38,272 bases of DNA from a virus. Within the stretch, counting starts at the first letter, position 1; every line of letters begins with the position of its first letter. Below the pieces are notes generated by a model that worked only from the letters and a program-made list of their open reading frames with translations, was not told the origin of the DNA and made no database searches. Of this stretch, positions 4,735-31,739 are shown one piece after another. The DNA is taken from the IMG/VR virus record IMGVR_UViG_3300042434_000607, positions 1 through 38,272 of that record; one strand, given 5' to 3'. Both the position numbers and the translations under genes were made by a program.

Positions 4735-5596
4735 CGAGCCACCTCATGACACAACGCTGCGACGGGTTCAGGAACAGAGCCCGCCCGGTCGCCTTGCTCA
4801 CGCTCTCGTGGAACGTGACGTGTTCGCAGTCCGAACCGTCGTACTTGCCAGCCAGATACTCGTCAGTCCGGTAGATGCACAGGCCGCCCATGGCACTACA
4901 CACCGGCACCGGTGGGCTGCCCACCGGAGGCAACCAGTGATGCTTCCAGCCTCCGACTCCCGCCGTGTAGTCATCCCAATACGAGTTCAGCCGGAGCGCC
5001 CAACAGTCGTAGTGCAGCCACGCCTCGATCGGCCTGGTGTGGCCTTCGGCGTTTGTCTCGTACGCCGGATGCTGCAGCAGCGACACGCTGGCCATGCCGT
5101 ACGCCTCCGGCAGCTCGAGCAGCCAGCCGATGCCGTTGAGCACGCCTTGGTGTGACCAACCGCCCCACGCGTCGAAGTCGACGACCACGACGTAGTCCGA
5201 GTCGCCAGCACACTCACGCACCCACCGCTGGCAGGCCGTGCGGTACTCGGCCAGGGCCTCCGTGCGGCGGCCTGCAAACTCGGCCGAGAACTGCTCGCGG
5301 CCGAGCCTCTGGCTCGTGAACGTCGCCTGCCGATGCTCGCGGCAGAAGTCGGCCAGCACCTGGTCGGTGGCGTCCTCGTTGTCGTTCGTCTCGACGTGCA
5401 GCTGCCACGACCTGGCCGAGGCGCCAAGCATGGCGACACGCTCCAGGTTGACCTCCAGAGGCCCCGCACAGTTGCGGGCGAGGCCGACGATTGCGATCCG
5501 GCTGTCGTGCAGTTCCTGCTCGCCGGCCGACACCATCTCGGCAAAGTCAGCCTCGAACGGCTCGACGGGCATCAGCAGGTTTTTCGGTAGCTTCAC
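4709..5596 (-). CDS. Glycosyltransferase, GT-A type
   Basis: The 295-residue protein opens with a nucleotide-binding strand (RIAIVGLARNCAGPL), then a VETNDNEDATDQ segment, and a DxD-like metal site (VVVVDFDAWGGWS, Asp140 and Asp142). This order is typical of GT-A enzymes that move a sugar from a nucleotide donor. The start is a GTG overlapping the preceding stop (GTGA) with AGGTGA upstream; a longer ORF in this frame is not protein-like. It is paired with a second glycosyltransferase. The target may be phage DNA, a virion protein or the host envelope; the sequence does not tell. Confidence 0.72.
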   Translation of the reverse strand: MKLPKNLLMPVEPFEADFAEMVSAGEQELHDSRIAIVGLARNCAGPLEVNLERVAMLGASARSWQLHVETNDNEDATDQVLADFCREHRQATFTSQRLGREQFSAEFAGRRTEALAEYRTACQRWVRECAGDSDYVVVVDFDAWGGWSHQGVLNGIGWLLELPEAYGMASVSLLQHPAYETNAEGHTRPIEAWLHYDCWALRLNSYWDDYTAGVGGWKHHWLPPVGSPPVPVCSAMGGLCIYRTDEYLAGKYDGSDCEHVTFHESVSKATGRALFLNPSQRCVMRWLDGGQHGDD

Positions 5597-6219
5597 CGTA
5601 TCACCTGCGACATGGTGCGTTTCAGCCACTCGATTCTCTCCTGCATTGGAAACACGCCGCACGGGTGGTACACGAAATCGCCCGGCTGCCAGTGGCCACC
5701 GACTTCGTCCCGCTCGTTGGCTGGCCGGTTCCACACGCACGAGTTGAAGGCCCGGAGCGGTGCCACGGTGAGTACGTCCACGCCAACCGATGCGAGCTCG
5801 CCAAGCAGGGTCTGCCACCCACACCGCAGGCCCACCCACCGGTCACGCTCTTCGGAAATAGTCTGCAGCAGAGCGCGTGCCTTGGTCGTGTCTCGCCATA
5901 CCATGCTGCCGCAGTTCAAGCGGTTCCACGACACGATTCCTTCCTCGCACACCGTGACGTGCGGCCCGATGCACGCGAGCTCGTGGATAGGCTGCCGCAT
6001 GTCCGTGATGACAGCGTCACAGTCGAGCGTCCACAGCATGTCGAACCGGTCGAGGTAGTGGCACAACAGATCGACTCTGGCCACCGCCTCGTCATAGGGC
6101 TGGTTGTCGCAGATCAGCGAGTACCCGTGCCGCAGGCAATACTCAAGCTTGTTCGGAACGGTGAGCGTGGCCAAATCGGCAATGTTCGCCGACACGCTCG
6201 TTACGAGTGCCACATTCAC
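5593..6219 (-). CDS. Glycosyltransferase-like protein with DxD motif
   Basis: The 208-residue protein begins MNVALVTSVSANIADL and has a DxD motif in MLWTLDCDAVITD (Asp66, Asp68) after a helix that contacts donor sugar in GT34- or GT8-like enzymes. A Trp- and His-containing loop lies near the end (WQPGDFVYHPCG). It starts at GTG, overlapping the RusA stop by four bases (GTGA), and overlaps the next glycosyltransferase in the same way, so the two are co-translated and may act one after the other. Family assignment is by motif order only. Confidence 0.68.
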   Translation of the reverse strand: MNVALVTSVSANIADLATLTVPNKLEYCLRHGYSLICDNQPYDEAVARVDLLCHYLDRFDMLWTLDCDAVITDMRQPIHELACIGPHVTVCEEGIVSWNRLNCGSMVWRDTTKARALLQTISEERDRWVGLRCGWQTLLGELASVGVDVLTVAPLRAFNSCVWNRPANERDEVGGHWQPGDFVYHPCGVFPMQERIEWLKRTMSQVIR

Positions 6220-13477: not shown

Positions 13478-13506
13478 TTGAACAACCGTACAGGTGGTCA
13501 TACAAT
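13478..13506 (+). promoter_or_regulatory. Integrase promoter candidate
   Basis: TTGAAC (13478-13483) and TACAAT (13501-13506) are 17 bases apart, a good sigma-70-type match. The start point near 13513 precedes AGGAG (13521) and the ATG (13535). A second TTGAAC at 13466-13471 gives direct repeats 12 bases apart across the -35 region, a possible regulator site. Confidence 0.6.
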
Positions 13507-13534
13507 CGCCTCCAACCCAAAGGAGACGACGAAA

Positions 13535-14509
13535 ATGATGCTGAGAGAACTGCTGATCGACCGTGTTGCCCCGCTGAAGAACCTCTCGGACAGGTCCGTG
13601 AAGATGTACGAGAGCACCCTGGACCGCTTCCGCGACTTTCTGGGGCATGAGCCGACCGTAGACGACCTGACCGACCTGACGGCCGCGAAGTTCTTGCGAT
13701 GGCGGCAGACGCACCAACACAGCAAGTTTAAGCTGATCTCGCCGGCCAGCTTGGCCAAGGATTCCGCGCACCTGCGGAGTTTGTGGACCTGGCTAGCAAA
13801 GAAACGCTGGAAGCGGTCGGACGGCGAACTGATCGAGTTCCCGGACTATGCCAGGCCAAGGGTGCCAAAGCCCGTACCGAAGGCGTACAAGGCCGAGGAG
13901 CTCGCCAGGCTGGTCGAGGTGGCCCGCACGCGGAAGGGCTACATATGCGGCAAGCCGGCCGCCTGGTATTGGCCGACGAAAATACTGGCCATGTTCCAGA
14001 CCGGGGAACGGATCGGCGCCATCTTGGAGATACGCTGGTCGGAGGTGGACCTCGAGCGGCACACGCTGACGTTCCTGGCAGCCACGCGTAAAGGCCATAG
14101 GGAGACGATTACACGGCCGATCACGCCGGAACTGTCTCGGATGCTGGCTGCGCAGAAAGGGGCTCCTAATGAGCGTGTGTGGCCTTGGCTGGATGACCGG
14201 GAGATGCTGTCGCTCTACGGCAGCCTGCGAGTGCTGTGCAGGGTGGCTGGCGTGCCATACAAGCCATTCCATTCCGTGAGAAAAAGCACCGCGAGTTATC
14301 TGAAACGGGCTGGAATTTCAGCAAGAAAACAGCTTGGTCATTCCTCGGAGGAAATGGCCGAAACTCACTATTACTGCGAAGACATCGTTGGCAGGGAAAA
14401 CAACCTGGACTACCTGCCCGACATCGACAGACCGCACGAGCCAGACGCGAACCCCAAAAAGCTCCCACCGGAAGGCGAGGAATCCACGGGCGACAAGCCA
14501 GCAGCCTGA
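13535..14509 (+). CDS. int: Tyrosine recombinase (integrase)
   Basis: This 324-residue integrase is the only plus-strand gene. An N-terminal SAM-like core-binding domain (about residues 15-95) is followed by the catalytic domain. The catalytic set is Arg159 (FQTGERIGAIL), Lys186 (RKGHRE), His246 and Arg249 (FHSVRKS), His269 (LGHSS) and Tyr279 or 280 (THYY). It inserts phage DNA at a host attachment site, so the phage is temperate. AGGAG nine bases before ATGATG sets the start; an upstream in-frame ATG would lie in the promoter. The tail after residue 290 is polar and probably flexible. Confidence 0.95.
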   Translation: MMLRELLIDRVAPLKNLSDRSVKMYESTLDRFRDFLGHEPTVDDLTDLTAAKFLRWRQTHQHSKFKLISPASLAKDSAHLRSLWTWLAKKRWKRSDGELIEFPDYARPRVPKPVPKAYKAEELARLVEVARTRKGYICGKPAAWYWPTKILAMFQTGERIGAILEIRWSEVDLERHTLTFLAATRKGHRETITRPITPELSRMLAAQKGAPNERVWPWLDDREMLSLYGSLRVLCRVAGVPYKPFHSVRKSTASYLKRAGISARKQLGHSSEEMAETHYYCEDIVGRENNLDYLPDIDRPHEPDANPKKLPPEGEESTGDKPAA

Positions 14510-18279: not shown

Positions 18280-18408
18280 TCACCAATAGCTCAGGATCAC
18301 TCGTCCAATCGCCCACCGCATCGCAGCCGCCCCTGCGCGAGCCGACAGCACCAGCGCGGCGGCACCGGCTGTGGCGAGGGCGACGATGAAGATGGGGAGT
18401 CGGATCAT
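18280..18408 (-). CDS. 42-residue single-span membrane protein
   Basis: This short gene begins at an ATG in an ATGA overlap with the LamG fibre gene and ends three bases before the next start. The protein is MIRLPIFIVALATAGAAALV and a short basic, Trp-containing end, one clear membrane span. It was found by following the four-base junction. It might act in entry or at the host membrane; nothing more can be said. Confidence 0.6.
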   Translation of the reverse strand: MIRLPIFIVALATAGAAALVLSARAGAAAMRWAIGRVILSYW

Positions 18409-19505
18409 GAATCTGGAAACGGCGTCGCCTGCGGCGTGAATGTCGTGCCGTTTGGATAACGACAGACGCCAGTAGTGATCCGCAGTTCATCGATGTTTCC
18501 GATGAAGTCGCGTCCCGTCAGCACGCCGTCTCGCCCGATTCGGATTATCGAGTCGGAATTGGCGCTATACGACTGCGTCATGTCGTACGTCATCGACGCT
18601 CGCTGAACACCGTCTATGTACATGCGAATGACGTTCCCGCTGTCTCGGCATACTGCCAGGTGGTGCCAGTTGTTGTCGTTCAGTCCGTTGATTGATGACC
18701 CTAGCGCACTGCCGCCAAGACCGAGCGAAAACAGGTAGATGTCACCCGAGCTCGACGACACGTTGTTGATGTTGATGACGTAGTCATAGGCTCCCTCTAC
18801 GCCTTCTCGTCCGCGATAGAAGAGGCAGGCGTATTGCGTGGTCGAGTTCGTGCGAAACCAGAACTCGACGGTGTGCAACTGGTTGGAAAAGTGCAGCGAA
18901 GACTGGCCGACGGTCGGAGTCTGGATAGAGTCACCGCTGCCATCAAAGTACGCAGAGCGACCAAACACGCTTTGCGCTGCGCTTTGCGTGGCATTTCCGC
19001 TGGTCGTAATAGCCCTTGGAGTTCCGCTGGAGTCAACAAATGCGCTGCCCAGACCGTCCATGTGCAAAAGCAGCGAGACGTTGCTGAAACTTGGGTCTGT
19101 CGCCCACGACGACAACGCCGCCCGCTCCCATGTATTCGCTGCGGTTGCGACGTACAGGTAATTGCCGTCATACGCGATCTGCCCCGCAGTGCCGCTCGCC
19201 GTCGCCGACGCTGGCACGCTCGACCATGAGAGGCCAGAGCCGCCAGACGCAGCCAACACGCCGTCGGTGATCGTCAAGCCGCCGCCGACCTTGACGCCGC
19301 CAAGCACGGAGGCGGATGCGGTTGGCAGCGTGTATGAGCCACCACCGCTCCCGCCGAGCGTGATCGCTTGAATCGTGTTCTGCGGCGTCTTCACGAACAG
19401 CTTGTTGTCCGCGTAATTGATGCACACCTCGTTGATTTCGAGGTCGCTGGTGAGCGGCACGGCACCGGCGGTGTAGCTGCGACGCAATTTGATTTTGTTA
19501 GCCAT
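18405..19505 (-). CDS. Tail fibre with LamG-like domain
   Basis: The 366-residue protein begins MANKIKLRRSYTAGAVPLTS, the head segment it shares with the fibre at 29772-30536. A Gly- and Ser-rich stalk (about residues 50-130) follows. The C-terminal 220 residues form a concanavalin- or LamG-type jelly roll: VSLLLHMDGLG, AYFDGSGDSI, TVEFWFRTN, NWHHLAVCRD, RMYIDGVQ and GNIDELRIT are the usual strands. Such domains bind glycans, so this is a probable receptor-binding fibre. It follows the RCC1 fibre by seven bases. Confidence 0.82.
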   Translation of the reverse strand: MANKIKLRRSYTAGAVPLTSDLEINEVCINYADNKLFVKTPQNTIQAITLGGSGGGSYTLPTASASVLGGVKVGGGLTITDGVLAASGGSGLSWSSVPASATASGTAGQIAYDGNYLYVATAANTWERAALSSWATDPSFSNVSLLLHMDGLGSAFVDSSGTPRAITTSGNATQSAAQSVFGRSAYFDGSGDSIQTPTVGQSSLHFSNQLHTVEFWFRTNSTTQYACLFYRGREGVEGAYDYVININNVSSSSGDIYLFSLGLGGSALGSSINGLNDNNWHHLAVCRDSGNVIRMYIDGVQRASMTYDMTQSYSANSDSIIRIGRDGVLTGRDFIGNIDELRITTGVCRYPNGTTFTPQATPFPDS

Positions 19506-19512
19506 GAGTCAC

Positions 19513-22500
19513 CTATGTTGCGTAAGCGATTGCGACAGTGTGCGCGACCCCTGCGGAAATGCTTTGCCAAGCGGCAGAACCAATCTGCACAGGAGACAGC
19601 CTGTTTGTCGTGGTCCCGTCACCAAGCTGCCCGTTGGAGTTCAGCCCCCATGCCCACAACGTGTTGTCGCTGCGGATGGCAACTGTGTGCGAGCCTCCAG
19701 CCGCGACGGCCAGCCATGAACTAGAGCCAACCTGAGTCGGCGACACGCTATCGACAGTAGTTCCATTGCCGAGTTGCCCGCTTGAGTTCAGCCCCCAGGA
19801 CCACAGCGTGCCATCGCTGCGAATGGCAACGGCAAAATAATCGCCAGCCGACACAGACTTCCACGCTGACGATCCGATCTGAACAGGCATCAGACGGCTC
19901 GTTGTCGTGCCGTCCCCCAACTGTCCATAATTGTTCGCGCCCCATGACCACAGCGTGCCATCATTCCGAACGGCACTCGAAAAATAACTGCCAGCAGACG
20001 CTTGCCTCCACGTCGCCGCGCCTACCTGGAATGGCGAACGTCCTCCGTAATAGTCTGCCGTTGGCAATTGCCCAGAGCTGTTGTCTCCCCATGTCCACAG
20101 CGTGCCGTCGCTACGAATGGCAACGAAATGGCTCCAGCCAGCAGCAGCCGTACTCCATGTAGATGCACCAACCTGCACTGGCGACGATCTGTTTGTAGTC
20201 GTGCCGTCACCAACCGGGTAGCGCCCCCATGCCCATAGCGTGTTGTCGCTGCGAATGGCAACTCCACCATTTACGGCACCGGCCACAGACTTCCACGAAG
20301 ACAAGCCGATCTGCACAGGAGACAGCCTGTCAACAGACGAGCCGTCACCAAGCATCAAGTTATTGTTGTCGCCCCATGCCCACAACGTGTTGTCGCTGCG
20401 GATGGCGTGCGTGAAACGATAGCCTGCCGAAATTACTTTCCATACCGACGAGCCTAGTTGCAGCGGAGATGAGCGGCCCGTCAGCGTGCCGTCGCCTAGC
20501 TGACCTTGGCTGTTTTGCCCCCATGTAAACAGCAGCGAAGGCACCGAAAGCAATGCGGCGACGCTCGTCACGCTGGTCAGCCCAGAAGACGAAACGACGG
20601 CACGATACTGCCGCTCGTTGGAGTCGCCAGCAATCCCAGACAGCGACAGCGTCGATGTGGTTGCGCCGCTAACGGCAGACCACGATTCGCCGCCATCTGA
20701 GCTTTGCTGCCATTGGTAGCCAAGCGTGCCAGATCCAGTGGCCGTAACTGAGAACGTCGCCGTGCCACCGCTCGCAGTCTGATCTGACGGCTGTGACGTG
20801 ATCGCAATATCCTGCACGGACAATAACGCCGCACTGCTCGTAACGGAGGCGGCATCCGCCGTTGAAACTACTACCCGATACTGGTCGCCGTTGTCCGCTG
20901 CTTGCAGCAGGCCGGTCAATGAGATAGTCGCACTTGTTGCGCCGCTGACGTTCGCCCACGAACCGCCAAAATCAAGTTTCTGCCACTGATACGACAACGA
21001 CGCCAGACCTGTCGTTGCTGCTGTGACAGAAAACGCAGCCGCCCCGCCTGCTGCGGTCTGGTTTGACGGTTGCGCGGTAATCGTAATTTGCGGCACCGTC
21101 AGCGTTGCGGAATTGCTTGTCACGCTGGCTGCGTTTGCCGCAGAGACCAACACGCGGTATCTCGCGTTGTTGTCTGCGACAACCGTCATGCCAGACAGCA
21201 CCAGCGTAGCCGACGTGGCACCTGAGACGTTCGCAAACGCCACGCCTGCGTCATTTGATCGCTGCCACTGGTAGGCGGGCGTGCCTGACGGAGCAGAAGA
21301 AGCCGTTACCGTGAACGTGGCATCTCCGTTGACGGCGGTTTGGCTCGTCGGCTGCTGCGTAATCGTGATCGTGTTATTCGCCTCGACCGTCAGCGTGGCC
21401 GCATTGCTCGTCACGCTCGCAGCGTTTGTAGCCGACACAACGACGCGGAACCTCGCTCCCCCATCGGCCTCGACCGTCAGGCCGGTGAGCGAAAGAGTGG
21501 CCGAAGTTGCCGACACCACATTTGCCCACGTCACGCCTGCGTCATTTGATCGCTGCCACTGGTAGCTCGGCGTGCCGCTGGGGCTGACCGTCGCCGCAGC
21601 CGTAAACGTCGCCGCCCCACTGCTAGCCGACTGATTAGTCGGCTGGGTTGTAATCGTGATCGTGTTCGCAGGCACCGCAAGCAGCGCGGAATCGCTGGTC
21701 ACGTCCACTGCGTTTGTCGATGACACCAAGACGCGGTAGCGGTCGCCGTCGTCAAGAGTGTTGAGCAAGCTCGACAAGGACAGAGTCGAAGACGTGGCAC
21801 CAACGATGCTGAAAAACTCCCCGAACCCGCCGTCTTGTCGCTGCCATTGGTACGAAAGCGTCCCGCCAGGCGTCGAGGTTGCCGACACGCTGAACGTCGC
21901 CGCCCCATTGCTCGCCGTCTGTGCCGCAGGCTGCTGCGTGATCGTGATGGTGTTCTGGGGAATGAAGCCTTCAAACTCCCCACCGTCCACCGTTCCGTTC
22001 TGGTCAAGCCCACCACTCGCCGAGATCGTGAGCGTGCTATTCGCCGACGAGATCGTGACGTTGCCGCCCGCCGCCAGCGTGACGCCGCCGGTCAAGTTGT
22101 TCAGCGCCGTGACGTAGTTGTGGGCGTGGTTCGCCGCAGCCGCCCCCAGCGTCGATAGGGAGGGCAGCGTGTGAACGTGGTCGGCCCTGGCTGCGAGGTT
22201 CGACGAGCCAGCCGATGCCGTGCCCAGATTCGACGGCGTGGCGTCGGAGAGCGTGAGGTTGGAGCCGCCAGTTCCAGCGGCCCCCTGCGGGATGCCAAAC
22301 GCCAAGGCGACGTTCGAACCGCCATTGCTCGTCGTCGCCGTGACCGTGGCATCGGAGCCAGCGGAGAGCGTCGTGGCGGAAGCTGAGAACGTCGGCGTAA
22401 TGCCGTTGGTTCCGGTCGCTCCGGCCGCCCCGGTCTGGCCGGCCGGCAGGCCAAAGTTCAGCGTTAGGTTCGCCCCGCTGTTGGAGCTCGAGCTCGTCAC

Positions 22501-22719
22501 CGTGGCGTTAGAGCCAGGAGCGAGAGTCGAGACCTGGCCCACGGTGATCGTCGTGGATGGCGGCCCCTGCGGCCCCTGCGGGCCTGCTGGCCCAGCGGGG
22601 CCAAGGCCGGAGCCCACGGCCAACGAAAACGCCGTGCTGCTTGGCACGGTGACCAGGACGGCAGTGCCGCCTGACACACTAACGCCAGCAGCTGTAGACG
22701 AAACAGCGACGTTGATCAT
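19513..22719 (-). CDS. Large fibre with collagen, Ig-like and RCC1 domains
   Basis: The 1068-residue protein has, in order: an N-terminal beta segment; a collagen-like GPAGPAGPQGPQGPP run (40-54); a phage stalk with HVH (181-183) and HAH (198-200) metal-type motifs; DGGEF (245-249); five Ig-like domains of about 95 residues (about 256-728), each with SYQWQ-type Trp and YRVVVS-type Tyr strands; and seven RCC1 repeats (729-1068), each starting near TLWAWG and ending AIRSDN. Seven repeats make a closed beta-propeller. It is probably a receptor-binding tail fibre. It overlaps the BppU-like gene before it by four bases. Confidence 0.9.
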   Translation of the reverse strand: MINVAVSSTAAGVSVSGGTAVLVTVPSSTAFSLAVGSGLGPAGPAGPQGPQGPPSTTITVGQVSTLAPGSNATVTSSSSNSGANLTLNFGLPAGQTGAAGATGTNGITPTFSASATTLSAGSDATVTATTSNGGSNVALAFGIPQGAAGTGGSNLTLSDATPSNLGTASAGSSNLAARADHVHTLPSLSTLGAAAANHAHNYVTALNNLTGGVTLAAGGNVTISSANSTLTISASGGLDQNGTVDGGEFEGFIPQNTITITQQPAAQTASNGAATFSVSATSTPGGTLSYQWQRQDGGFGEFFSIVGATSSTLSLSSLLNTLDDGDRYRVLVSSTNAVDVTSDSALLAVPANTITITTQPTNQSASSGAATFTAAATVSPSGTPSYQWQRSNDAGVTWANVVSATSATLSLTGLTVEADGGARFRVVVSATNAASVTSNAATLTVEANNTITITQQPTSQTAVNGDATFTVTASSAPSGTPAYQWQRSNDAGVAFANVSGATSATLVLSGMTVVADNNARYRVLVSAANAASVTSNSATLTVPQITITAQPSNQTAAGGAAAFSVTAATTGLASLSYQWQKLDFGGSWANVSGATSATISLTGLLQAADNGDQYRVVVSTADAASVTSSAALLSVQDIAITSQPSDQTASGGTATFSVTATGSGTLGYQWQQSSDGGESWSAVSGATTSTLSLSGIAGDSNERQYRAVVSSSGLTSVTSVAALLSVPSLLFTWGQNSQGQLGDGTLTGRSSPLQLGSSVWKVISAGYRFTHAIRSDNTLWAWGDNNNLMLGDGSSVDRLSPVQIGLSSWKSVAGAVNGGVAIRSDNTLWAWGRYPVGDGTTTNRSSPVQVGASTWSTAAAGWSHFVAIRSDGTLWTWGDNSSGQLPTADYYGGRSPFQVGAATWRQASAGSYFSSAVRNDGTLWSWGANNYGQLGDGTTTSRLMPVQIGSSAWKSVSAGDYFAVAIRSDGTLWSWGLNSSGQLGNGTTVDSVSPTQVGSSSWLAVAAGGSHTVAIRSDNTLWAWGLNSNGQLGDGTTTNRLSPVQIGSAAWQSISAGVAHTVAIAYAT
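19583..20406 (-). repeat. Exact in-frame repeats between RCC1 blades
   Basis: A 35-base stretch at 19646-19680 recurs without change at 20372-20406, and a 22-base stretch at 19583-19604 recurs at 20309-20330. Both pairs are 726 bases (242 codons) apart, linking blades two and seven of the RCC1 propeller. Perfect identity points to recent duplication or gene conversion. Confidence 0.85.
21241..21565 (-). repeat. Exact in-frame repeats between Ig-like domains
   Basis: A 34-base stretch at 21241-21274 is repeated identically at 21532-21565. The distance is 291 bases (97 codons), one Ig-like unit, so domains two and three share it in frame. It encodes the strand with the conserved YQWQRSNDAG. 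Confidence 0.85.
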
Positions 22720-23084
22720 GGAGCGAAAGCCTTGAGCGTGCCGCTCAGAAACGTGCGAGTCACCGACGACGAAGAAACCCCTCGCATGTACCAGCGGTAG
22801 GTCTTGGCCGGATCGAGGGAGCCAGTATGCTGTTCAGTCAACGACAGGTTGATTTGTCCTGCCGCTGCGTCAACGACTGTCACCGTGAAGGTCGCAGCCG
22901 TTGTTCCCTGCGTGTTCACGCCAACCGGATTCACGAAGGACACGTTTGTCGCCGCTTCGTAAACGATCGCCGACCAACTGTAGCCGGTTGTGTCAATGCT
23001 CAGGTCGGCAAGCATGCCGAACTCATCGCCCACGGTGAGCGAGATGTTTAAGGCGCCAGGAAGTGCCACGAATTCGGAGGCCAT
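22716..23084 (-). CDS. BppU-like baseplate or fibre-attachment protein
   Basis: The 122-residue protein has the pattern of N-terminal BppU-type beta domains: LPGALNISLTVGDEFG, GYSWSAIV, AAAGQINLSLTEQ and YRWYMRG. It is clearly related to the protein at 30808-31131 (shared LPG, GDE-x-G, AAG-x-x-N, LTEQ, RT-x-L-x-G). It probably joins fibres to the tail tip. It lies first in the enlarged fibre cassette and is coupled to the RCC1 fibre gene. Confidence 0.72.
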   Translation of the reverse strand: MASEFVALPGALNISLTVGDEFGMLADLSIDTTGYSWSAIVYEAATNVSFVNPVGVNTQGTTAATFTVTVVDAAAGQINLSLTEQHTGSLDPAKTYRWYMRGVSSSSVTRTFLSGTLKAFAP

Positions 23085-23116: not shown

Positions 23117-23989
23117 TTAGAACGGCGGCCTGCCGAACAACGGGGCGAAAGCAACCTCCCGATGCACGCGGCGGTAGAGAATGTCAGGGGCTACCCCTGA
23201 GCCTTTGAGCGAGCCGTTGGCGTTTAGGGCCACAGGATTCGACGACGCGACCTTGTCGCCGCTGTCCGGGTCGATGACATACGCCCGCTTCTGTTGGCTC
23301 CCCTCGAGGTAGTTGTAGCCGACGTTCGGAAGCATCAGCCGCCACCCACTCTGGCGATAAGCCAACTCAACCGACACCGACCAATACTTCAGCTCCGATC
23401 CGTTGACGACCTCGACCTGCTGCTGGCCGCTGATCCCCTGGCACTTCCACTGATACGGCTGCGCGCCCAGGTACGCGTCTGCGTTCACGCAGTTGGTCAC
23501 TTGGGCGGCCACACCGACGGGAAACGACGGGCGATTGCCTGAGATCGTGCAGCGGAGCTCGCTCTCCTCGGTCATCGCCCCCTCAAAGAAGTCGCCGGCC
23601 GAGTTGACCAGGACGCGCATGTCGCCATTCCCGCTGCCATGAAAGTAAGCCAGCGCAGGGACTGCGGCCCCGCCTGTCGAGAAGGACCAGATGTCGGCAC
23701 GGGCCAGCGGGTTGGGGTCGCTGTCCTGCGTGCCGATCGCGGGCACGGAGTACGAGTACGTCACCTCGACATGAAAGCGGTCTAGCTCGGTTACGGCACC
23801 TTCGTTGCACAGCAGATAGCCGTATTCCGGGTGCGGCGTGCCGTGGAATATGCCGACAGCGTTGAGGGCTTCCTGTGTGTTGACAGGGCCGTCCGTTGTC
23901 AGGTGGTACTTGATCTCGGCAGTCGGCGACTCACCGAACCTGTGCGAAAACGTGCGAGGGATGACCTCGCGAAATGCGAGAACTGGCAT
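23117..23989 (-). CDS. Minor tail protein, probable distal tail component
   Basis: This is a 290-residue, beta-rich protein directly after the tape measure, where siphophages encode the distal tail protein or a tail-hub protein. Recognisable are YGYLLCNEGAVTEL, a VEVTYSYSV strand and a C-terminal VNPVALN-like stretch (SSNPVALNANGSLKG) as in hub-type tail proteins. The start is in a TAATG junction with the tape-measure stop. Exact family not certain. Confidence 0.68.
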   Translation of the reverse strand: MPVLAFREVIPRTFSHRFGESPTAEIKYHLTTDGPVNTQEALNAVGIFHGTPHPEYGYLLCNEGAVTELDRFHVEVTYSYSVPAIGTQDSDPNPLARADIWSFSTGGAAVPALAYFHGSGNGDMRVLVNSAGDFFEGAMTEESELRCTISGNRPSFPVGVAAQVTNCVNADAYLGAQPYQWKCQGISGQQQVEVVNGSELKYWSVSVELAYRQSGWRLMLPNVGYNYLEGSQQKRAYVIDPDSGDKVASSNPVALNANGSLKGSGVAPDILYRRVHREVAFAPLFGRPPF

Positions 23990-26900
23990 TAGGCTGCCCC
24001 CACGATGTCAACCACGCCGCCGAGCTTGCCGATCTCTCGGGCAATCTTCTGGAGCTCGGCCAGCTGCTTTCGGTATTCGCCAATCGCCGGATCTTCCCGG
24101 CCCGTGGCCAGCCGCAGGAACTCGCTGGCCCCTTCGCTCGTTCGCACGTCCGTAGCCTGCACGGTCTGCTGAGAAACCTGCGAAAGGGCGTCGAGCCGGT
24201 CCGCCTCAATCTCCGCAGCACGCTGGGCGTACTGCTCGTTCAGGTCACGGATACGCTCGGCAGTCTTGAGGGCATCCTCAAAGCCAGAGCGGATCGCGTC
24301 GGCAGCCTGCTCAAAGGTTTCGGGGTCGATGACCTTCGCCTCGAGGTCCGCCTCCAGCTGGGCCAGCTGCTCCTGGGCTGCGGTGAACGCCTCTGGTGCG
24401 ATTTCAAAATTGACGTACGAGAACGTCTCGTCGAGCTTGTCACGCACCGACGCAATCGCCCGCTCGGCGTCCTGTGTCGAGAACCCAAACTGGGCCGTCT
24501 CTTCAGCAGCGGCCTGAGCCTGGTCGAGAACCTGCAACCGCCGGATGGCAGCATCTTCGGCAGCCTTATCGCCGCTGGCACGGGCCTCGACGATGGCCGC
24601 CTCTGTCTCCTCGATCTGCCTGACGATCGCCAGGAGCGTGTCGGCTGGCGTCGCTCCGTCACCGCCGCCGAGACCTTGTGCGGAAATGAACGCGTCGGCC
24701 AGCTTGCGGTCGGCCTCCACGGCAGCAGCTGCAGCACGCTCAGCCGCTGCGATCTTTTCGTCGGCTGCCTTCTGGGCAGCTTCGGAAGCAAGAGCCTGAG
24801 CCTGGGCCTCTTTGTCCAGCGTTTCGATCTTGGCTTCGAAGGCTGCCTTCTCCTGCTCGGCCGCCTTCTTCGCCTCGTCGGCAGTCAGCGTACCGTCGGC
24901 TTGCAGTTGTGCGATCTGCTCGAGCGAGTTCTGGTAGGCGAGAGCGGCCTGGAATCCGGCGTCGCCAAACTCGGCCGCCGCCGTGGCAGCCGTGCCGATC
25001 TCCTTGGCGAACTGCGAGGCGGCCAGCGTGGGCTGCGACAGGTCGAGTTCGGGAATCACCGGCTCTTCGACCTCGGCGGTGATGCCGAGGAAGTTCTCGG
25101 CAATGGTGAGCAGGCGTCCAACGGTCCCGCCGATGGCGTTGGCGATCGTTTCGAATGTGGACGACACGCCACCGAATACGGACGAGATCACGCCGCCGAT
25201 CTGTTCAATGGCAGACTGCAGGCCGAAGAACTCAGCCCACGACGCCAGCGTGTCGCCGATGTAGCTGCCGACCTGTGAGAGCGCCGTGCCGATGATGTTG
25301 GCAACACGCGAGACGGTTTCGCCAAGACCGCCAAGGTTGTCAGCAACTGCACCGAGCGGCGAGAACGATACGGCGAAATCTGTAGCAGCTACCGCGCCGT
25401 CGACAAGATACCGCACAACGTCGATGAACGCGGTGCCGAACGATTCACCGACCGCGCCGAACGCTTGGGCCAGGTCTCCGATAGGCGAGATGATTTCTCC
25501 GATCACGCGGCCGATACCGCCGATGACCACGCCAACAACCTCGAACGCTGTACCCAGACCAGACAGCACCGGCTCCAGCACGTCGCCAATCGGCCCGACG
25601 ATGGCATTGATTCCGCCCAGGAACTCGGCTGAGCCTTGTGCGATGCCTTCGCCCAGGCCGACAAACGGCAATAGGAGCAGCTCGCCGAGCCGGGAACTGG
25701 CAACGCCCAGCGCGTCGATGCCTGCACCGAAGTCATCAATGCGGCCACGGTCGATGGCCGACAGTGATCCGCCGAGTCGCTCGATGTCGTCTGCCGCTGG
25801 GCCGAGGTTGGCGAAGAACGGCAGCAGGTCGGCGCCGCTCTTGCCGAAGATCTGCATCGCAGCGGCCGTCCGCTTCGCCGGATCTTCGATGCCCTGCAGT
25901 TGTTCGCCGACCAGGCGAATCTGCTCCTCCGGGCTCAAGTTCTCCAAGTCCGTGAACGAAATGCCCAGCTTGGCCAGGGCCGCAGTCGCGGCCTTGCTCT
26001 CCTCGTCTGCACCGGCGAGCGTCTTCTGCAGCTTGCCGAAGGCGCTGCTGACTGATTCGATGGAAACGCCCGAGCGGTTGCCCGCTTCCTCGAGCGTCTG
26101 GATGAACTCAAACGACACGCCCAGCTTGTCGGCCGTGTTGCCGAGCGTCTCGACGCGGTCCTCGAGGTCGAGCAGCCCGCTGGCCACCGCGGTAGCACCC
26201 GCACCAAACGCAGCCACCGCAGCGAGGCCGACAGTGAACGGATTCACCATCCCAGCCACCGAGGCTCCGATGTTGGCAAGGCCGCCAGACAGGCCGGCAC
26301 CGCCGCCGAAGACCTTGCCGAGACCCTCGCCAGCAGACGCCAGACCTGACAGACGGCCGGCCACATTGCCGATCGGGCCTGGCAAGGCCGACAGCACGCC
26401 GGACAACTCGTTGAACTTCATCGTGCCGCCGTCGCCGGCACCGTCGACAGAATCACCGAACTTGTCGGCCGCGCTCGTCGCCTTGGCCCACTCCGTGGCG
26501 GCCTTGTTTAAAGCCGAGTTGTACGTGTCCTGCGAGATGCGGCCGGCGGCCAGGTGGTCGTTCAACTCTTGGACCTGGGCGTCGTACTTCTGCTGCGGCG
26601 TGAGGTTGGCCTGCGTGATCTGAGCCGCGCGTGCCAGGGCCTTTGCCCGGTCAGTCTCGGCCGCCGCCGCTTCTTCGTTGGCTCCGCTGGCCTCTGCCGC
26701 GGCACGGGCATAGGTCTCCTCGCTGATCGCTCCGGCCGCGAGCAGCTGGCCCAGCCGCTCGAGCTCGGCCGTCCGCCGTTCCTCGGCCGTCGCCACCTGC
26801 TCGGTGATACGTGCTCCTTCGGCAAACGCCGCCGCCGCCGTTTGGGCGCTGCCCACAATGGCCTGCAGTTCGGAGGCGTACTCCTGGGCAGAAATCTGCC

Positions 26901-27120
26901 CGGTCTTGAGGGCACTGCCGAGAAACGCGATGTCCGTGGCCACCTGCTGCTGGGCCGCAGCTGCCGCACCGCTTGCCGCCGTGAACGAGTCGAAGAGCGA
27001 CGACGCAGCCGCGGCCTGCTTGCCAAGGTTCTGCAGTTGACGGTCGACCTGCGACAGCCCCTTGGTCATGCCATTGGCATTGGCCGAGAACTGCACGCCG
27101 AGTCCGATAACCGTCGCCAT
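23989..27120 (-). CDS. Tail tape measure protein
   Basis: This 1043-residue protein starts with a coiled N-terminus (GMTKGLSQVDRQLQNLGKQA), continues with long Ala-rich helices, a central hydrophobic Gly-rich region (about residues 230-310 and 500-680) and Ala- and Glu-rich coiled coils near the end. This is the standard make-up of phage tape measures, which set tail length and help DNA entry. Assuming about 0.15 nm per residue, the tail would be about 150 nm long. It follows the assembly chaperone genes with a TAATG junction. Confidence 0.92.
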   Translation of the reverse strand: MATVIGLGVQFSANANGMTKGLSQVDRQLQNLGKQAAAASSLFDSFTAASGAAAAAQQQVATDIAFLGSALKTGQISAQEYASELQAIVGSAQTAAAAFAEGARITEQVATAEERRTAELERLGQLLAAGAISEETYARAAAEASGANEEAAAAETDRAKALARAAQITQANLTPQQKYDAQVQELNDHLAAGRISQDTYNSALNKAATEWAKATSAADKFGDSVDGAGDGGTMKFNELSGVLSALPGPIGNVAGRLSGLASAGEGLGKVFGGGAGLSGGLANIGASVAGMVNPFTVGLAAVAAFGAGATAVASGLLDLEDRVETLGNTADKLGVSFEFIQTLEEAGNRSGVSIESVSSAFGKLQKTLAGADEESKAATAALAKLGISFTDLENLSPEEQIRLVGEQLQGIEDPAKRTAAAMQIFGKSGADLLPFFANLGPAADDIERLGGSLSAIDRGRIDDFGAGIDALGVASSRLGELLLLPFVGLGEGIAQGSAEFLGGINAIVGPIGDVLEPVLSGLGTAFEVVGVVIGGIGRVIGEIISPIGDLAQAFGAVGESFGTAFIDVVRYLVDGAVAATDFAVSFSPLGAVADNLGGLGETVSRVANIIGTALSQVGSYIGDTLASWAEFFGLQSAIEQIGGVISSVFGGVSSTFETIANAIGGTVGRLLTIAENFLGITAEVEEPVIPELDLSQPTLAASQFAKEIGTAATAAAEFGDAGFQAALAYQNSLEQIAQLQADGTLTADEAKKAAEQEKAAFEAKIETLDKEAQAQALASEAAQKAADEKIAAAERAAAAAVEADRKLADAFISAQGLGGGDGATPADTLLAIVRQIEETEAAIVEARASGDKAAEDAAIRRLQVLDQAQAAAEETAQFGFSTQDAERAIASVRDKLDETFSYVNFEIAPEAFTAAQEQLAQLEADLEAKVIDPETFEQAADAIRSGFEDALKTAERIRDLNEQYAQRAAEIEADRLDALSQVSQQTVQATDVRTSEGASEFLRLATGREDPAIGEYRKQLAELQKIAREIGKLGGVVDIVGAA

Positions 27121-29771: not shown

Positions 29772-30536
29772 TTAGAACGATCCGCCGTCTACCGATGACG
29801 ACGGGTCCAGGTAGTCGGTGCCAGCAGTCGCAGCGGCGTAGCCCGTGCCGTTGCCCTTGAGGAGGCCAGAGACAGCAGACGTAAGCCCGAGCCCGCCGTA
29901 ACCCACAGCAACCGCCGTGCCTTGCCAGACGCCGCTGGAGATCGTGCCGACGCTGGTCAGGCTCGATCCGGTGACGCCGCTGCCAAGAGCAGAAGACGAC
30001 AGCACGGCCGTGCCGTTGATCGCGTAGCTTTTTCCACTCACGAGGTTGACGTGCTCGCTGCTCGTCCACGCGTCGATGGAGTCGGTCCACGTCAGGGTTT
30101 TGTCCGTCGTCCCCTTCAGCGTGATGCCGCCGCCGTCGGCTGTCTCGTCGGATGGTGATGCCGTGTCGCCGAGAATTACGTTTTTGTCTTCGACAACCAG
30201 GCTCGTACTGTTGATATTCGTCGTCGTGCCGTTGACGGTCAGGTTGCCGGTCACGGTCAGGTTCGATGAGATCGTGCCGCCAGTAAGCGGCAGGTAGTTC
30301 GCAAGCTGCGAAGACACATCCACGGCGGCGACCGCGCTTGTGACGTAGCTCTTCGTAGCGAACACTCCGTCGCCCCCTATAGCGATCACGCTCGTGGCGT
30401 TGCCGTCCTGCCCGAGCCCCTTGCCGTAGTAGAGGACGTTCTCGACTTCATTAAACGCGCACTCCGCGTTGAGAAGAGTCGCTGGAGCGCCAGCGTTCCC
30501 AGATACTCGCCGCTTCAGCCTGATCGTGTTCGCCAT
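29772..30536 (-). CDS. Fibre-like protein of the short cassette
   Basis: The 254-residue protein begins MANTIRLKRRVSGNAGAPAT, akin to the head of the LamG fibre (MANKIKLRRS). It continues with a repetitive stalk (TISSNLTVTGNLTVNGTT, GITLKGTTDKTLTW, SLTSVGTISSGVWQGTAV) and ends VDGGSF. Such stalks are typical of trimeric phage fibres. No receptor-binding head is present. GAGGAGA precedes the ATG. Confidence 0.75.
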   Translation of the reverse strand: MANTIRLKRRVSGNAGAPATLLNAECAFNEVENVLYYGKGLGQDGNATSVIAIGGDGVFATKSYVTSAVAAVDVSSQLANYLPLTGGTISSNLTVTGNLTVNGTTTNINSTSLVVEDKNVILGDTASPSDETADGGGITLKGTTDKTLTWTDSIDAWTSSEHVNLVSGKSYAINGTAVLSSSALGSGVTGSSLTSVGTISSGVWQGTAVAVGYGGLGLTSAVSGLLKGNGTGYAAATAGTDYLDPSSSVDGGSF

Positions 30537-30547
30537 GACCTATCTCC

Positions 30548-30811
30548 TCAGAAGTTCGCGCCGTCGATCACAAGATTTGATTCTGGTGCATCCCGCCATT
30601 TGCCATCCGCGTACCGCAGGAGGTCGCCAGGCTGCGGCGAGTCGATTTGCACATCTGCCAGTGACGCCAGGGTATTGCTGCTGGCCGGCCCTTGCGGCCC
30701 GACGCCGCCAATGACGTTGACAGACACAGCAGAAGCCGCGACAGACGCCGACACAGCCGTTCCTGAAACGGTGGCCGTGATCGGGTTGCTAGTGACGTTG
30801 GCCGTTGTCAC
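30548..30811 (-). CDS. Short fibre-linker protein with collagen-like turn
   Basis: This 87-residue protein is rich in Val, Ala, Ser and Thr (ITATVSGTAVSASVAASAVS) with GPQGP, then SLADVQIDSPQPGDLLRYAD and an IDGANF end. The order matches the first 250 residues of the 1068-residue fibre, including the final DGxxF motif, so it is the short paralogue. The GTG start overlaps the previous stop (GTGA). Confidence 0.7.
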   Translation of the reverse strand: MTTANVTSNPITATVSGTAVSASVAASAVSVNVIGGVGPQGPASSNTLASLADVQIDSPQPGDLLRYADGKWRDAPESNLVIDGANF

Positions 30812-31131
30812 CCGACGACCTCCACCAGACCCTGCAGTGCGGTCCTCCGCACACTACCCGGAGCGTCCCACTCAAGACGCCAGCCGTACGTGCCGACCGG
30901 TAGAGCGGCCGTCTGCTGCTCCGTAAGTGCAATGTTCACGACGCCGGCCGCGGCATTGGTCAGCGTGGTCGTGAACGCCGTCACTGTGTTGCCGGTAACC
31001 AGCGATGTGATCACCGCCGAGACCGTGTAGCCGGTCATGGTCGTGGGCGAGAAGTCGATCGTCGTGCCGAGCTCGTCGCCGCGGCGAAGCGACAGCCCCA
31101 GCTGGCCGGGAAGTTGGCTGTACGTGCTCAT
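30808..31131 (-). CDS. BppU-like protein of the short cassette
   Basis: This 107-residue protein, with LPGQLGLSLRRGDELG, GYTVSAVI, AAAGVVNIALTEQ and YGWRLEW, is the paralogue of the protein at 22716-23084. It would attach the small fibre to the virion. The ATG is in an ATGA overlap with the connector gene before it. Its presence between connector genes is unusual. Confidence 0.72.
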   Translation of the reverse strand: MSTYSQLPGQLGLSLRRGDELGTTIDFSPTTMTGYTVSAVITSLVTGNTVTAFTTTLTNAAAGVVNIALTEQQTAALPVGTYGWRLEWDAPGSVRRTALQGLVEVVG

Positions 31132-31739
31132 CGGTAAGTCCCCCAGCGGCACGAGTCGAGCAGGGAGTTCACGCCGAACTCGATTTCCTTAGACACAGTG
31201 CCGGTCAGCACAGACTCACGCCGGTCATACCAGTGAGCCACCAGCATCAGAATTGCGTGCCGGATCTGCGTAGGCACGCTGCGGCCGTCCTCGCCGTACC
31301 CGCCCCACCAGGTGATCATCACCGAGTTATCGTCGCGGCGATGCACGGGCCACGCCTGCTCGTACAGCGGGCTGATGGTGCCAGGCGTGGAGTGCCGGTC
31401 GACCCGGTACTCGTTCGACGGGAACACCACCACGGCACCGGTCTCCGTGGTGTACGTGATCGCCACTGAGGTGACGGCCGAGGCGGTTGCCATCGGCGGC
31501 CGTGGTAGCTCAATGTTGTCGAGGCCGTTCGGCGGAAACCCGTCCAGCCGCATCGTCCACTGCGTGTGAACCAGCGAGCGGTCCAGGTACTCCTCGACCC
31601 ACCCTCGAGCAGCTGCCACCAGGCCCATGATGTAGTTGTTGTCGTCGTCCGTATCGACGCGCAGGTGGGCCTTGGCGTCCGTGATGGTCACGGGCTCCAC
31701 GACAGACTGCGTGGCTCGTGTCAGGCTGCGGTACGTCAT
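31128..31739 (-). CDS. Head-tail connector (gp6-like)
   Basis: The 203-residue protein fits connector proteins of the HK97 gp6 or phiE125 gp8 type: PVTITDAKAHLRVDTDDDNN, LVAAARGWVEEYLDRSLV, and near the end IRHAILMLVAHWYDRRESVL. Twelve copies normally sit under the portal. It overlaps neighbours by four bases on both sides. Confidence 0.88.
   Translation of the reverse strand: MTYRSLTRATQSVVEPVTITDAKAHLRVDTDDDNNYIMGLVAAARGWVEEYLDRSLVHTQWTMRLDGFPPNGLDNIELPRPPMATASAVTSVAITYTTETGAVVVFPSNEYRVDRHSTPGTISPLYEQAWPVHRRDDNSVMITWWGGYGEDGRSVPTQIRHAILMLVAHWYDRRESVLTGTVSKEIEFGVNSLLDSCRWGTYR

Follow-up and report, generated by a model that had tools for sequence, protein, structure and literature searches.

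An RCC1 beta-propeller as the putative exchangeable head of a probable tail fibre from an uncultured tailed phage

Altogether, our analysis favours, with a probability of about 0.75, the reading that the 1068-residue protein encoded at positions 19513-22719 of the window (the whole stretch of DNA analysed, a 38,272-base IMG/VR virus contig) is a tail fibre that belongs to an uncultured tailed phage and bears an RCC1 propeller as its adhesin head. In our model, the N-terminal part would be the virion anchor, with the shaft and the five Ig-like domains as spacers, and the C-terminal seven-bladed RCC1 propeller is a putative host-binding head, itself one of several cassettes that may be exchanged on the same shaft. 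Binding would probably involve the face formed by the S1-S2 and S3-S4 loops of each blade, because the sequence varies most there in the family. Receptor binding by the predicted head is indirectly supported by the swapping of heads between relatives, the position of the gene after the tape measure, the variable loops on one face in the wider family and the occurrence of other RCC1 proteins in virions; the presence of the window fibre in the virion, host binding, the face used and the oligomeric state are inferred. A first-pass annotation, made from the letters alone, had recognised this architecture correctly, and the binding head that it guessed is the reading with the best support.

Architecture of the fibre gene

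The open reading frame given in the first-pass annotation is real and encodes 1068 residues; it had to be assigned to the minus strand, the plus strand at 19513-22719 containing many stops. The first base of the start codon is at 22719 and 19513 marks the C-terminal end, which puts the propeller at the lower coordinates. The gene and its parts are as follows.

19513..22719, minus strand: fibre gene, 1068 aa, open reading frame
22558..22602, minus strand: short collagen-like run of five Gly-X-Y triplets, residues 40-54, from the sequence
21952..22263, minus strand: conserved shaft with DHVH, HNYVT and VDGGEFEG motifs, residues 153-256, common to relatives with other heads
20536..21951, minus strand: five Ig-like domains, residues 257-728, from the sequence and Pfam Ig_3
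19516..20532, minus strand: seven RCC1 repeats, closed seven-bladed propeller head, residues 730-1068, from Pfam and the predicted structure

The collagen-like run that had been noted is present as five triplets (GPAGPAGPQGPQGPP), with a second, interrupted Gly-X-Y stretch at about residues 91-105; it is very short, and the window fibre lacks both a long Gly-X-Y run and a match to Pfam Collagen (PF01391), which is found in 2 of 28 scanned family members. The shaft ends in VDGGEFEG and is followed by five Ig-like copies, as proposed, which we counted by eye and for which the sequence support includes an Ig_3 (PF13927) score of 45.8 bits against a cut-off of 30. The C-terminal end consists of seven consecutive RCC1 repeats of 49, 49, 46, 49, 49, 49 and 48 residues, again as first described, and judged by their sequence the matches are beyond chance: Pfam RCC1 (PF00415) gives E 1.7e-60 (201.8 bits, cut-off 21.7) and the RCC1-like domain (PF25390) E 3.8e-77 (260.5 bits, cut-off 150).

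Predicted fold of the head

Residues 256-1068 were modelled as a single chain with AlphaFold2 from 46 sequences, and the model was compared with known folds by Foldseek and VIA-align. The head is predicted to be a closed propeller of seven blades with four strands each, with pLDDT values of 91-98 over nearly the whole head, in agreement with the fold that had been anticipated from the repeats. It matches an RCC1 domain of HERC2 (7q40; Z 51.6, rmsd 1.4 A over 340 residues), human RCC1 (1a12; Z 48.6) and BLIP-II (1jtd; Z 29.7, rmsd 2.5 A over 262 residues). The Ig region is modelled at low confidence (pLDDT about 35-77), so that its five domains are read from the sequence and not from the structure, and the rigidity suggested for the arm in the first-pass annotation gains no support from the model.

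A conserved shaft that carries different heads

We collected the shaft family by two scans of viral contigs, cut its members into modules and compared the heads of 24 of them. The family belongs to uncultured phages (L002, L003, L004, L007, L010, L028 and others), and the shaft is 66-88% identical to that of the window in many members and 35-56% identical in more distant ones. Among the 24, a true RCC1 head was found only in L005 (99% identical, over 226 residues) and L002 (46%). Other members carry, in place of the terminal RCC1 unit, an Asp-box-like propeller nested in an Ig domain (described below), a 'VRVFAWSGTAWVQRG' repeat (L007, L023, L037), which from its sequence looks like a third propeller, FN3 domains (L046, L050, L063) or laminin-G (L004). 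The claim that the propeller forms a C-terminal head on a conserved shaft is supported. The window fibre family combines a conserved proximal part with a variable or exchangeable distal head, and different heads on the same shaft are what one would see if the receptor-binding head were exchangeable. Several of the head-swapped contigs have tape measures that are only about 28-30% identical, in contrast to the conserved shaft, and the fibre portion has therefore been passed between phages that are otherwise distant. Together, the comparisons suggest that the propeller may be an exchangeable part for gripping the host cell.

In several relatives, an Asp-box-like propeller with repeats of the form S-x-DG-x-TWT-x-R is found within an Ig domain (L002, L003, L004, L025, L028, L036, L039, L053 and others). 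In L002, L003, L025, L028 and L036, a profile of the shaft plus Ig region breaks off near position 218 and, some 230-270 residues further on, picks up again at 215-219; this interruption places the propeller inside one Ig domain, between its strands YQWQ and FxNVSGATS. The window has nothing at the equivalent site, and its domain is uninterrupted (YQWQKLDFGGSWANVSGATS). A second type of insert lies nearer the start of the Ig domain (L010, L041, L044, L052, L061); relatives thus have the Asp-box-like propeller at either of two sites within one Ig domain. The L028 domain was modelled with a mean pLDDT of 82.6, and its propeller resembles virginiamycin B lyase (2z2o; Z 31.7); the Ig halves are modelled at lower confidence, for which reason the nesting is read from the sequence.

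Position in the phage genome

The source is an uncultured tailed phage: genes for terminase, portal, protease, major head protein, connector, tail completion and the tape measure all lie before the fibre on the same strand, which, together with the origin of the record in a virus collection, confirms that the fibre is a phage protein. The order tape measure, 290-aa gene, small gene and fibre is syntenic in related loci, and the fibre gene lies, as for a tail fibre, within the tail block after the tape measure. The neighbouring genes are as follows.

23989..27120, minus strand: tape-measure protein, from PHROGs
23117..23989, minus strand: 290-aa protein after the tape measure, conserved in related loci
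22716..23084, minus strand: 122-aa small protein directly upstream of the fibre, a relative of which precedes the fibre in six related loci, weak PHROGs matches
18405..19505, minus strand: second modular fibre with a laminin-G (lectin-like) domain, adjoining the propeller fibre downstream, Pfam Laminin_G_3 E 8.2e-19

Solved structures gave only weak sequence matches to the shaft or the 290-aa protein. Among isolated phages, we found neither near DNA relatives of the window nor its shaft. One scan of genome contigs for a host returned a single weak match of 35 residues in a Rhodoferax metagenome-assembled genome, and matches of the terminase, capsid and recombinase point to mixed hosts.

Variability on one face of the propeller

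Comparison of close pairs of RCC1 heads shows the repeat to vary at positions 6, 8, 9, 17, 19, 38 and 39, and all seven map to the S1-S2 and S3-S4 loops of the predicted blades. In an antiparallel meander these loops lie on the same face. Over eight independent pairs, amino-acid difference was 0.23 and 0.33 in the S1-S2 and S3-S4 loops versus 0.058 and 0.029 in the opposite loops, and dN/dS was 0.95 at the seven hot positions, which were picked from overlapping data, versus 0.17 in the strands. Within single proteins, the S1-S2/S3-S4 face was the more variable one in 185 of 189 seven-repeat heads; for the window head, the values are 0.57 on this face and 0.44 on the opposite one. Among full-length relatives that have an RCC1 head, L002 is the closest to the window, and comparison of these two gave no asymmetry between the faces. 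We therefore take the concentration of variation on a single propeller face across the wider family of RCC1 heads as supporting evidence only. No reverse transcriptase of a diversity-generating retroelement was found among the proteins scanned, in which small ORFs were covered in part.

RCC1 proteins across viral contigs

The idea that RCC1 propellers are rare in phages does not hold: the window head matches at least 599 viral stretches, and viral contigs commonly encode RCC1 propellers. The usual form is a stand-alone gene of about 390 aa within a tandem cluster, while fusion to a fibre is a minority form, found in the window, L002 and perhaps L104. Among the matches listed, 127 of 141 distinct complete RCC1 ORFs have exactly seven repeats, with 14 repeats in five and 21 in three. 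The ranking of loci against a seven-repeat query favours sevens, but many of the counted ORFs are neighbours of a ranked match and not the match itself. Tandem stand-alone RCC1 genes in contigs L067-L145 and L147-L225 share a few recurring short N-terminal tags. One of these, GVQYSGIWTMQQ, was considered as a tag that might also occur on other heads and was rejected, all 76 of 76 tagged ORFs carrying RCC1; the tagged ORFs that are complete have seven repeats in 72 of 72 cases.

Phage 121Q (L226) and L229-L231 have a cluster of about a dozen RCC1-like genes, which is far more mosaic between these related coliphages than its surroundings. In four 121Q-like coliphages, flanking genes are 98-100% identical where compared and genes of the RCC1 cluster about 30 to 100%; the repeats of this type of cluster are too degenerate for the repeat profile used in the face test. 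In cyanophage BUCT-ZZ01, the RCC1-bearing gene lies close to a tail fibre gene; this and the mosaic coliphage clusters count in favour of the adhesin reading.

Relation to known proteins and alternative explanations

The window head is a clear member by sequence of the RCC1 family (PF00415; 1a12, UVR8 and the HERC2 RLD, 7q40), with which it shares seven repeats of about 50 residues and Z scores of 48.6-51.6. In eukaryotes, proteins of this family have roles in signalling, chromatin or ubiquitin pathways, whereas the window domain terminates a phage fibre, and we do not expect it to have the activities of RCC1 proper in Ran nucleotide exchange and chromatin binding. BLIP-II (1jtd) is a bacterial seven-bladed propeller of RCC1 type that binds a protein partner, but it is a smaller chain, a beta-lactamase inhibitor and not part of a fibre. 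Phage proteins with RCC1 repeats (PHROGs 4219, 7220 and 16766; in W70, GAP32, 121Q and S-SRM01) are mostly stand-alone, while the head of the window is fused to a shaft and Ig domains. Phages phi11 and PRD1 are known to have propellers in their receptor-binding proteins, and one has been proposed for phiKZ (PMC4901313). Those of phi11 Gp45, PRD1 P2 and phiKZ gp131, in receptor-binding or peripheral virion proteins, are not built of RCC1 repeats, and the phi11 and PRD1 propellers are five-bladed (PMC4901313). In phi11 Gp45 the propeller is placed between a coiled-coil stem and C-terminal tower domains (PMC4901313); the window protein is of a different type, its propeller being seven-bladed and C-terminal with nothing after it.

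Phage RCC1 proteins are usually labelled as DNA-condensing, and PHROGs files families 4219, 7220 and 16766 under DNA metabolism, yet such proteins are present in published virion proteomes: three in W70 virions (PMC11370258) and one in GAP32 virions (PMC5259590), each by mass spectrometry. In two close jumbo coliphages, two RCC1 proteins are among the most divergent proteins (PMC13070987). A role of the window RCC1 domain in binding or ordering the packaged DNA, along the lines of a proposal for jumbo coliphage RCC1 proteins, agrees with the PHROGs category; the proposal itself, made by the phAPEC6 authors, derives from the family name and from the DNA contacts of eukaryotic RCC1 (PMC7247149) and thus rests on a name and not on a test. 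Because the RCC1 domain of the window closes a modular fibre, encoded in the tail block, at its C-terminus and is swapped in relatives for lectin-like or other propeller domains, we consider a DNA role highly improbable.

The fibre could instead sit on the head or neck in the manner of a Hoc-like decoration and aid weak attachment to cells or surfaces without being the main receptor-binding protein. Its Ig-like domains match PHROGs families of head decoration, a gene related to the small upstream one stands among the head and connector genes of the window (30808-31152), and in L003 the relative of this small gene is flanked by the fibre and a P0007 relative. However, Ig-like domains are also common in tail fibres, and the window gene follows the tape measure and is itself followed by another fibre gene, making a place on the head or neck rather unlikely. 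Alternatively, the propeller may be a structural spacer or an enzyme, with binding left to the laminin-G fibre, whose lectin-like domain is encoded directly next to it; enzymes make up several of the propeller families, and the propeller nested in relatives has a fold similar to that of virginiamycin B lyase. We know of no enzymatic RCC1 domain, and with a terminal position that fits a head better than a spacer and heads that differ as whole units between relatives, this explanation appears improbable. A host-binding RCC1 head on a tail fibre is therefore the reading that we prefer.

We found no proposal of RCC1 propellers as phage adhesins in the openly accessible literature; some apparent mentions of RCC1 in papers turned out to be strain names or gene numbers. 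It is tempting to speculate, and here the odds seem to us evenly balanced, that RCC1 seven-bladed propellers are a major and mislabelled class of phage adhesin heads, in which a fixed scaffold presents one hypervariable face. Hundreds of environmental phages would then have such heads, some encoded by tandem genes that stand alone and others, like the window fibre, borne as a cassette that can be exchanged on a shaft open to other types of propeller as well. An RCC1 domain fused to a fibre, on a shaft that swaps heads, points to adsorption rather than a role with DNA, and if this is true PHROGs 4219, 7220 and 16766 would move from DNA metabolism to virion adhesins. The interest of the window fibre thus lies not in rarity but in showing a common phage domain, labelled as DNA-condensing, in the place of an exchangeable fibre head.

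Further observations on the window and L005

An integrase-like ORF (PF00589, 34.9 bits against 27.1) is encoded at 13478-14509 on the plus strand, whereas the structural genes are on the minus strand; the source phage is probably temperate. A gene at 5593-6219 (minus strand) has a weak match to glycosyltransferases (PF05637, 27.5 bits against a cut-off of 23). The small proteins encoded at 22716-23084 and 30808-31152, both on the minus strand, are related to each other, the latter lying among the head and connector genes, and relatives precede fibre genes in other phages; the two are possibly fibre adaptors. The gene at 29772-30536 (minus strand) encodes a short, fibre-like protein of 254 aa with SVDGGSF at its end. 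In the other fibre, this motif is followed by the Ig domains and head, and the short protein looks by its sequence like a fibre without a head. Finally, L005 is 94-96% identical in DNA to the window in this region, and its downstream laminin-G fibre (687-2543) has 619 aa compared with 366 for that of the window (18405-19505), owing to an extra laminin-G-containing stretch of about 750 bases; the difference is a recent gain or loss of a module.
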